Assembly (NCBI GenBank): GCA_949710005.1
Contig: OX453275.1
Span: forward strand, 28,338,218-28,402,217
Source of the DNA: Ricordea florida
Lineage: Eukaryota > Cnidaria > Anthozoa > Corallimorpharia > Ricordeidae
Direction of reading: 5' to 3'
DNA length: 64,000 nucleotides
In this document: positions 19,233 through 32,200 of the stretch, in pieces
Numbering within the stretch: the first letter of the stretch is position 1
Layout of the letters: every line of letters starts with the position of its first letter
Notes under the pieces: generated by a model
What the model saw: the letters and a program-made list of their open reading frames with translations, nothing else
Databases searched by the model: none
What the model was told of the DNA's origin: nothing
Translations under genes and position numbers: made by a program

Positions 19233-20252
19233 ATGCCAAAAGCAGAAAAAGGAGAATTCTTTAAGATATTGGGAGTAGACAACTGCTCAACTGAAAGTAC
19301 GTTATCACTCGGATTTTACTCTTTATGGTACTTTTGCCTTCTGATTTCTGACGCGGGACTATGTGGGAGGTTTGACGGTCCATGGACTTCCGATTTGAAA
19401 TGGACGAGTTTAAGAAGAAGGGAAATCCGTAAAGAAGTCGTAGATTTGGAGGGGCCGTTCTCCAGTAAATCTCTATCGGGTGAAGTATGTAATTATTGAA
19501 ACGAAGCCTGGTTTTTACTGAGATTCATTTGTCGCTTTTCAGATGAAATTAAACGGGCTTACAAGAAACTTGCTTTACAGTTTCACCCGGACAAGGTACC
19601 GGTATGACTTAACTCATTCTGTTATCGTCATGCGATTTCACACTTGCATTTCGTTGTGTGCTGTGCAGAAGATGTGTGTGAGCTTTAACTGTTTGCTTTT
19701 GGTTTTTTTTTTCGCCCTATTCTGATCCAAATTTGTGTGTTGTGTGTTTCAAATAAACATCACCGACTTTCTTATCACTACTATCACTTCACAGAACCAG
19801 AATGACTTTTCGGGAAGAAAACAGTTCGAAGAAGTCAGTAAAGCGTTCGAATCTCTGACTCTAGGTAACAATTATCCTGTTGTTTGAATTCAGTGGTTAA
19901 CAAGCTGTGTTGAATGTTTCAGTGAGTCGATTCCTTGATGCGATGCAATTATATATTGTACGTCTAGAAATCGAATTCTCGTACCTAGAGTCTGTTTGCT
20001 TTTTGTTTTTCCTAAATAATTTTCTGTTTTCCATTCCTTAGATTACGGGGATGATTCGTATAGGCAAGACTACGACCAGGTATCAGAATTCTTATGCGGT
20101 GTGGGAAATTTAAAGTCAGAAATATGGCTGGCAAATTTTAAAGTACCCTTGTTGAAATTGTACACCGTTTCCAGTTGATATTTCACCTTGGAACTTATGT
20201 TTCCTCTAGGTCTTTTTTGACTTCTTACGAGATATCTTTGGCTGGAAAGAAG
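19233..20252 (+). other. Exons 1-5: DnaJ (J) domain
   Basis: The exons are 19233-19296, 19543-19595, 19795-19864, 20042-20079 and 20210-20252. Together they read EFFKILGV, the helix II segment EIKRAYKKLALQFHPDK, NQNDFSGRKQFEEVSKAFES, and a tail ending FFDFLRDIFGWKE. The HPD tripeptide that stimulates Hsp70 ATPase is intact, as is the KAFESL helix III segment. No zinc-finger or glycine/phenylalanine region follows, so it is a class C J protein by layout. Confidence 0.9.
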
Positions 20253-29200: not shown

Positions 29201-32200
29201 ATTGTGTCAACTCGCACGAGGGTTTGTGCTGTGTTTTCTATGTAGTGTTTGATGTTCTTGGACTATGTTTTCATTGGAAACCAAGCTAAGTTGTAATTAA
29301 ATGTAATTATCGGGTAGAAAAAGCCCACGTTGAATCTCAAATCTATTTCTAAGCATGTCGCACCCGAGACATGCGATCGCTACTTGTACACGTGTTCTGT
29401 TAGATTCTACATACGTGGATCATTTCTCGGTTATGAGAAATATTTAAAGCCTCCAGAGTCAATGATTTATATCTCAGTGAGGTTCAAGGATCAGACTGAT
29501 GCTTTCAGGCTTCAAAATGTTCGTTTCAGCAGCAATTGACTAAAATATCAAAGCTCCATATGTGCCCAGCCTATACACTTGTGTTGTACAAAGAATTACG
29601 TGACAACTTTGAAGGGGCTTTCATTAAATCATATGAAGATTTTAGTTATACTGTGTATAGGCCGCACCCCCATTTTGCACAAAATTTATTTGAAAAAAAA
29701 GTGCAGCCTATACACGTGCGAATACGGTAATACCAGTATTAAAGAAATAGAAAACATTTTCTGTGTTTCTATCGAGTTACACAAGTGGAAGTTTGGTAGA
29801 ACAAGAAATGCTGTGGGAACACAAGGCGATAGGTTAGAGTTTCCACAACTTTTTCGAGTTCTTGCAAACGTTTACGAGTGTTTCTATTACACAATTAGAG
29901 TATGTGCTCGAGATTTCTATTGCACATGATATTTGACAAGGGTGCAGCCTGAGTCAACTATGACACATAGAAATCTAGTGCAAATAATCTAATTGTTTTA
30001 GTATAAATCTACTATTCGTTCAAAACTTTGTCTTTTCTGGAACAGCCTCGACCAGTAAACTGTCTAAATCTTCTTCACGGACACTTCAAAAATGTGAAGA
30101 AACGGCTGCCATTTTGTTAGCAAGGGCACACTGCTATGCTATTCACTATCTATCACAGAATAGATAGTGGGTAGCGTAGCCAATCAGAGCGTGGCATTTG
30201 TGATAGAACGCTAGTAGATTTATACTAAAACTTGATAGAAACATGAAGAAAATGTTTCCTATTTCTTTTAGAAAACAGACCACAACAACTTTTTTGGGTT
30301 TCTATCAAGTTTTAGTGTTCCCAAGATTTAATGTTTATTTGTGGCAGCTCCTGTGGGTCTCAATATTTTAGTTTATTTATCAACTAATATTCTTTATGCA
30401 TACTCGATGAGATGTTAAAGTATCTTTCTTAGATAACTTTGTTGAACTTATAGAACACGAAGAGACAACAGCAGCAGCAGCGAATAGAACAACAGCAGTA
30501 TCCTCGAGAAATACCACCAAGGTTTCAAAAGAAGATGAAGCAGCAGCAGCAACAACAGCTGCAACAACAGCAGCAGACACAGACACAGCCATCTCAACAG
30601 CAGACAAAAATTTCCTCTAAACTTCCTCTAACAGGTATCTCATAGATATGAGCGCAGTTTGATTGTTTTCTTCAAAGTAGTCAGAGAAAAAAATTAGAAA
30701 AGAAAGAAAGGCTTTGTATTTTATACGAGCATGCAGTTCTGGAAAACCCAATCAAGGAACAAGAGAGGAAGAGTACCTTAAAATGCCAGGATGATTTTTT
30801 TCCCTGGGAAAATTTAGAATCTTTATGCAGCTGGTGGGCCAGGAACAACTTAATATTCATTTCATCTCCCTCTCCTCCCACCCCCTACCCCCATATACAT
30901 GTATGACATAATTACATAATAGGTGTATCCCACTTCCAGGGGTGGGGCTTGTAAGCTTTTTAGCATATCATACCCATTGTAGAACAGGGTAGGAATTTTT
31001 GGTATGTACATTACTTAAGAATAACTAGCAAAAAATTAATTGTTTTGAATATGATCTGGTCAAGGCTAAGAGCCTGTTATTGCGCGGGATGACGTAGTCA
31101 GCCAGTGTATAAAATTCAGTAGCGCATTCCTTTCGTCATCTTGGGAGTCAAAACTTGCCTTGTTTTTTTAACTTTCCCGTATCCCGAGCCCGTCCTGAAA
31201 AAATTGTGTGACTTTTATTGGCTGTAACTCCGAATCACGTGCAAAGTCAGGTTGGATTGCACCATGGATATCCATGACCGCACAATCAGCCAGAAAACAT
31301 ACTGCGTCAGCAATTTTAAACCAACACATCCCGCGTAAACGCCTTCAGGCGTCTTTATGTTTAAACTAGGTTTAGACCAAGCTTGATAATACCAAGCTTG
31401 TCTAAACTGAATTTGTGCTGTGTCAACTTAAGCTTTCAATCTTGCTTATGTCACACTGGTCTATGTATTCAAATCCTGCCCACTGAAAATGAATTGGTTT
31501 CATTGACTCAATCGCAACTTGGTCAGTTTCAAACCCTTACAATTTTAATTAAACTGGGGCTTAAGTTGAACATAGTTTAAATAACTGGCCCTAAGGGGTT
31601 AAGGATTTCTTTTGCATACCCACAACCTAACAGTTATAGAGTACCTTCCTCCAGGTATTGGGGCAGCCAATGTTGTAATTGTCTTCTCATCGACTGTATT
31701 TGACTTCTCCTTAACATTTGCTTTGGACTTTATTTTCATAGTTGGTAAGAAAAAGGATCCAAATCGTTTTTCAGCAAAGGAATATGCTGACATTATTGAG
31801 CCTATGGACGATTCAGGGTGGTCTCAATCTGCCCCTGGAAAGGGGTCAGGATGGGGCAATTCTATAGAAACTTGGGAAGAGACTAATAAGTGGGGTAGTG
31901 TGGATAGACAATGGGGCAATAAAGAGGGGACTCAGGAACAGCTTGTTGTGGATGAAGGTGATAGAGACACTTGGCCAACTATTGGCACAAAAGGAACAAT
32001 AGGAGACAAAATCAAGGCTTCTTCCAGTGAAACAGGTTCTGATAGAGGCCAACAATCCTCTGAATCCTCACCCAAGACTTCTGTTTCTTCACTGTCGATG
32101 TTTAAATCTGATAATTTATCAACTGCACCTAGCACAGTTACATGCAATGTGGACAAGAAGATATCATCTTGTGCTAGCAACTGGCAGGGTCTTTACCCTC

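Follow-up and report, generated by a model that had tools for sequence, protein, structure and literature searches.

A predicted gene of Ricordea florida that joins a J domain to a GW182/TNRC6 protein, in a layout common to Nematostella

For the loading step, Argonaute is opened by the chaperones Hsc70 and Hsp90 (PMC12388510). The J protein Droj2 interacts with Ago1 and Ago2 and is one of five chaperones needed for the in vitro loading of Drosophila Ago2, and its plant counterparts, Arabidopsis J2/J3, sit on AGO1 of the RNA-induced silencing complex (RISC) (PMC6204899). The GW182 protein of Nematostella binds Argonaute and CCR4-NOT, and GW182 has been proposed to form condensates with microRNA-bound RISC (miRISC) (PMC7283388). 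Here we describe a gene of the corallimorph Ricordea florida, located in a stretch of 64,000 nt (contig OX453275.1, positions 28,338,218 to 28,402,217; hereafter the window), whose predicted product carries a J domain in front of a GW182/TNRC6 body. GW182 joins Argonaute after loading, and the GW182 proteins of flies and mammals are not known to have a J domain.

The gene is predicted to encode one open frame of 1,857 aa, assembled from 22 exons through 21 GT-AG junctions (Table 1). The original prediction, made from the letters of the window, had claimed 17 stop-free, phase-compatible junctions between the ATG at 19233 and the GW exon (31742-32931), and every one of these was recovered in the predicted splicing. 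Its start of the feature (19233) stands, whereas its end (31800) does not, as the frame continues through four further junctions (exons 19-22) to the stop codon at 39533-39535. The start codon is sound, because in-frame stops lie upstream of it and the opening MPK is common to the window protein and two relatives, Nematostella P0093 and the short protein P0001.

The Nematostella protein provides the main support for a single fused product. Searching proteins of approximately 1,000-3,250 aa with the J region gave nine matches, the best of which (E 2.2e-61) was P0093, a record of 1,695 aa named 'trinucleotide repeat-containing gene 6A protein isoform X1' that already lists DnaJ, UBA and RRM. It was the sole GW182 among these matches, the other eight being proteins other than GW182; isoform X1 is a predicted record, for which support by RNA reads is assumed. 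By blastp, residues 1-1853 of the window protein align with 1-1692 of P0093, collinear from end to end (E 0.0, 45% identity). In 20-residue segments placed on the 21 junctions, 7 to 20 residues are identical, compared to a mean of 9.5 for such segments over the whole protein, and the two lowest (7 and 10) include 5 and 8 gap positions. Around the exon 16/17 junction, at which the original prediction had allowed that the transcript might be split, 16 of the 20 residues are identical. As a single Nematostella protein of the same order spans this junction, the comparison of predicted proteins confirms the fusion as real, encoded by one gene and common to Nematostella, in line with the proposal of one fused protein.

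Conservation between the two proteins varies along their length. Identities amount to 49/70 in the J domain, 61/97 in the part that follows (aa 79-180), 138/165 in the charged helix, 37/50 in the PPRF/Q part, 151/351 in the GW region (aa 406-800) and 42/50 in the UBA domain. The Q-rich middle (165/360), the PPEF/P-GL part (109/259), the RRM (58/90) and the C-terminus (74/131) complete the comparison. Conservation of the J domain is thus on a par with that of the RRM and exceeds that of the GW region.

The layout first proposed, a J domain with an intact HPD motif, a long charged helix and then GW182, was borne out by Pfam matches to DnaJ, UBA and RRM and by motifs in the expected order: J domain, acidic linker, charged helix, YPREIPPRF, GW repeats, UBA, Q-rich region, PPEF, P-GL and a GW182-type RRM. 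The J domain scores 60.4 bits against PF00226 (cut-off 27.8), and the best 60 matches of the first 183 aa to solved structures all fall on it. The structure model represents P0001 rather than the window protein, and used an alignment of 34 rows (P0001, P0093, 31 taken from the 91 remaining proteins of the first J-region search and P0096 from the second). The segment after the J domain (exons 5-9) matched no Pfam family even at E 10, and its relation to a known DnaJ family, such as DNAJC9, was rejected on this ground; the rows of the fold comparison cover residues 2-73.

The remainder of the protein has the features of the GW182/TNRC6 family. Six GW (aa 424-786) and eight WG (aa 436-769) motifs lie in its N-terminal part, with one extra GW at aa 86, outside the repeat region. 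The RRM has Drosophila GW182 (2wbr) as its top match among solved structures (E 1.2e-15, the runner-up at 0.0082), and the UBA, Q-rich, PPEF and P-GL elements follow in the family order. One result could weigh against this assignment: the family TNRC6-PABC_bdg (PF16608) was unmatched at E 0.01 in both the window protein and P0093, and it matches 3/3 pipefish TNRC6B proteins; this model may be tuned to vertebrates. A scan of exon 21 against viral and prokaryote contigs found no relative.

Further relatives bear on how the J domain and the GW182 body are distributed. The J-region search over short proteins gave 92 matches with one relative of the whole segment, P0001 (267 aa, 75% identical). This protein contains the J domain plus the beginning of the helix, stops close to the border of exons 13 and 14 and so does not itself show the fusion. 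It is encoded without interruption on a contig of 903 nt, whereas the twelve introns between exons 1-13 of the window total 6,361 nt, which suggests that P0001 derives from RNA. The RRM search returned five matches, namely P0102, which begins at residue 846 and so has no visible N-terminus, P0093 with a J domain, and three pipefish TNRC6B proteins (P0103, P0104, P0105) in which no J domain was found at E up to 10. No GW182 of Hydra, sponges, placozoans or other corals was among the matches of the three protein searches (two with the J region, one with the RRM). The pipefish proteins begin MEDKKRKKEEKRKREASQK and have a PPREVPPRF-type sequence approximately 130 residues in. In an alignment of two of these proteins with the window protein, their charged beginning fell opposite the middle of its charged helix; the exact register is uncertain in such a low-complexity stretch, and the order of charged stretch and PPRF is common to both. 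By this shared order, the usual start of GW182 lies downstream of the J domain and of the helix's first part. The helix is no neutral linker, since vertebrate TNRC6B likewise begins with a charged stretch ahead of PPRF, though a shorter one. For the absence of a J domain from bilaterian GW182, support comes from the three pipefish proteins and from the J-region search; the fly and mammalian proteins are not known to have one.

Taken together, we consider it probable that this single GW182/TNRC6 gene encodes a functional N-terminal J domain that recruits Hsp70 to GW182 assemblies. The HPD motif and the basic second helix (KRAYKK), features of J-domain proteins (Hsp40), are retained in the window protein, P0093 and P0001, which suggests that the J domain is functional. 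GW182 would then call Hsp70 (Hsc70) wherever it sits, on Argonaute, at the deadenylase complex or in GW/P-body condensates, and the charged helix would be an extended spacer that separates the J domain from the GW region, which binds Argonaute. Local Hsp70 action on the assembly would most likely serve the turnover of the Argonaute/GW182 complex or the solubility of a Q-rich, self-associating protein. Argonaute loading would be a less certain task than turnover or condensate upkeep, since GW182 arrives at Argonaute after loading.

The original prediction, which pointed to Hsp70/Hsp90 as the loader of Argonaute and suggested direct Hsp70 recruitment to the silencing complex, is thus supported in part: one fused protein is upheld, and Hsp70 recruitment for loading remains a proposal. 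A role at the loading step itself, with GW182-bound Hsp70 helping to open empty Argonaute so that it can admit the small-RNA duplex, nevertheless has the chaperone requirement of loading in its favor, both for Hsc70/Hsp90 (PMC12388510) and for Droj2 among the five Drosophila chaperones (PMC6204899). We regard it as unlikely, given the late arrival of GW182 and the sufficiency of free J proteins for loading. It is likewise quite improbable that, in a real fusion, the J domain has lost chaperone work and serves as a protein-protein interaction module. Such a role could be read from the altered ending of the domain (DSYRQDYDQ in place of the usual KRxxYD), but is at odds with the retained HPD and KRAYKK, and with PF00226 scores far above the cut-off in all three proteins.

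Very unlikely, in our view, is an arrangement of two transcription units or isoforms, in which a J-domain/charged-helix protein ends after exon 16, a conventional GW182 starts at the helix or after it, and the full fusion is a minor product or does not occur. In its favor, the introns numbered 5 (2,297 nt) and 16 (2,155 nt) are long, read-through of the exon 16 donor meets a stop after 12 more codons, and neither P0001 nor P0102 reaches far enough to show the fusion. Set against this are the Nematostella record, which crosses the junction in one protein, and the recurrence of a charged stretch with PPRF in vertebrate TNRC6B. In addition, the calculated mass of P0093 is 185.3 kDa (144.7 kDa when the first 340 residues are removed), and a western-blot legend gives Nematostella GW182 as 185 kDa, whether measured or predicted being unspecified (PMC12768352), which fits the fused form. 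Two separate genes are rejected as the principal explanation by the one Nematostella protein across the junction, and chance compatibility of frames by homology across all 21 junctions.

A more far-reaching proposal is that anthozoan, perhaps all cnidarian, GW182 acts as a co-chaperone of Hsp70 dedicated to the silencing complex. It would bring Hsp70 to Argonaute and couple silencing to disassembly or reloading of the complex, in a layout that may date back to the animal ancestor, with loss in Bilateria, where free J proteins are used instead. We hold this to be possible but doubtful; data from one vertebrate family are compatible with gain in cnidarians as well as with loss in bilaterians.

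The architecture is not new to databases, as it is already present in the public Nematostella record, where it has apparently gone unremarked. Cnidarian GW182 is reportedly described by Mauri 2017 (NAR) and Moran 2013 (MBE). No mention of a J domain-GW182 fusion was found in the open-licence literature searched; an earlier description is possible. The terms DnaJ and J domain are absent from the text of PMC12768352, PMC11811051, PMC3962355, PMC6211395 and PMC4752309. Within the literature searched, GW182 and 'J domain' occur together only in a plant review, and PMC12898128 has DnaJ in a reference only. Should the J domain prove active, the silencing complexes of cnidarians would carry their own Hsp70 recruiter, and one motif in one gene would give a direct route to the role of Hsp70 for Argonaute and GW182 after loading, in Nematostella, an animal with established small-RNA work. 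An active J domain could also connect heat stress with silencing by microRNAs in these animals and in corals, and would provide a character with which to reconstruct the GW182 of the animal ancestor.

Table 1. Features of the J-domain GW182 gene, in window coordinates
Feature	Position	Strand	Evidence or remark
Whole coding span	19233..39535	+	GT-AG borders, single open frame, collinear with P0093
Exons 1-4	19233-19296, 19543-19595, 19795-19864, 20042-20079	+	
Exons 5-9	20210-20252, 22550-22640, 23647-23719, 24103-24153, 24549-24614	+	
Exons 10-13	25465-25506, 25629-25682, 25866-25940, 26314-26390	+	
Exons 14-16	27772-27928, 28143-28164, 28261-28298	+	
Exons 17-18	30454-30634, 31742-32931	+	
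Exons 19-22	33714-33791, 34548-34605, 36002-38259, 38741-39535	+	
J domain, aa 9-74, exons 1-4	19233..20079	+	PF00226
HPD motif, aa 36-38	19584..19592	+	Read from sequence; also at 36 in P0093 and P0001
Post-J segment, exons 5-9	20210..24614	+	FFDFLRDI, FCGSKQH, acidic stretch, predicted helical pair; conserved in three relatives
Long charged helix, about aa 184-338, exons 10-16	25465..28298	+	138/165 residues of aa 181-345 identical to Nematostella
Intron 16 (junction doubted in the original prediction)	28299..30453	+	Joined product 16/20 identical to P0093 around it
YPREIPPRF box, aa 354-362, exon 17	30499..30525	+	YPREIPPRF also in Nematostella; MPREVPPRF in pipefish TNRC6B
GW/WG repeat region, exon 18	31742..32931	+	Motif positions
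UBA domain, aa 810-840, exons 19-20	33714..34605	+	PF00627, 23.8 bits (cut-off 22.4)
Exon 21: Q-rich region, PPEF box, P-GL box, RRM start	36002..38259	+	Motif positions
PPEF box (PAM2-like core), aa 1300	37378-37389	+	Motif position
P-GL box RPPPGL, aa 1415	37723-37740	+	Motif position
RRM, aa 1587-1648, split by intron 21	38239..38905	+	PF00076, 24.9 bits (cut-off 20.7)

An upstream frame of 16 codons (19214-19264, +) overlaps the start codon of the gene out of frame, and the base at -3 is T for its ATG and A for the ATG at 19233. Within intron 13, positions 26731-27100 (+) resemble, by eye, a remnant of a Tc1/mariner-type transposase.

Elsewhere in the window, a protein-kinase piece lies within 50993-62308 (-) (PF00069, 46.3 bits; HRDIKPHN, SDFGLCKK), with a possible luminal piece at 61874-62308; we take it to resemble the stress sensor IRE1. 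A frame of 524 codons (47988-49562, +) scores 29.2 bits against the reverse-transcriptase family PF00078, just below the cut-off of 29.6, and is presumably Penelope-like. Large tandem arrays of a 36-base unit (7, 30 and 8 copies) occupy 43740-45400, and because this unit is a multiple of three, frames stay open across them. A run of long open frames at 1303-6585 (+), split between frames and lacking a Pfam match in the four scanned, may be a single gene that has decayed or contains introns. At 16279-16591, two tandem copies of 156 bases (99% match) probably reflect a recent duplication or an assembly effect.

Compared with described systems, the window protein is closest to Nematostella TNRC6A isoform X1, which has the same layout throughout and is 162 residues shorter, chiefly in low-complexity parts. 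Vertebrate TNRC6B, as represented by the pipefish proteins, resembles it in the charged stretch, PPRF-type box, PPEF, P-GL and RRM, but shows no J domain at E up to 10 and does match PF16608. The likeness to Drosophila GW182 concerns the RRM, to which that comparison was limited. With the cochaperones of the DnaJ, DNAJB and DNAJC groups it shares an HPD-bearing J domain, yet in place of any other DnaJ-type domain it has a complete GW182 body. In Arabidopsis (J2/J3) and Drosophila (Droj2), J proteins also meet Argonaute complexes, yet as proteins separate from the effector (PMC6204899).
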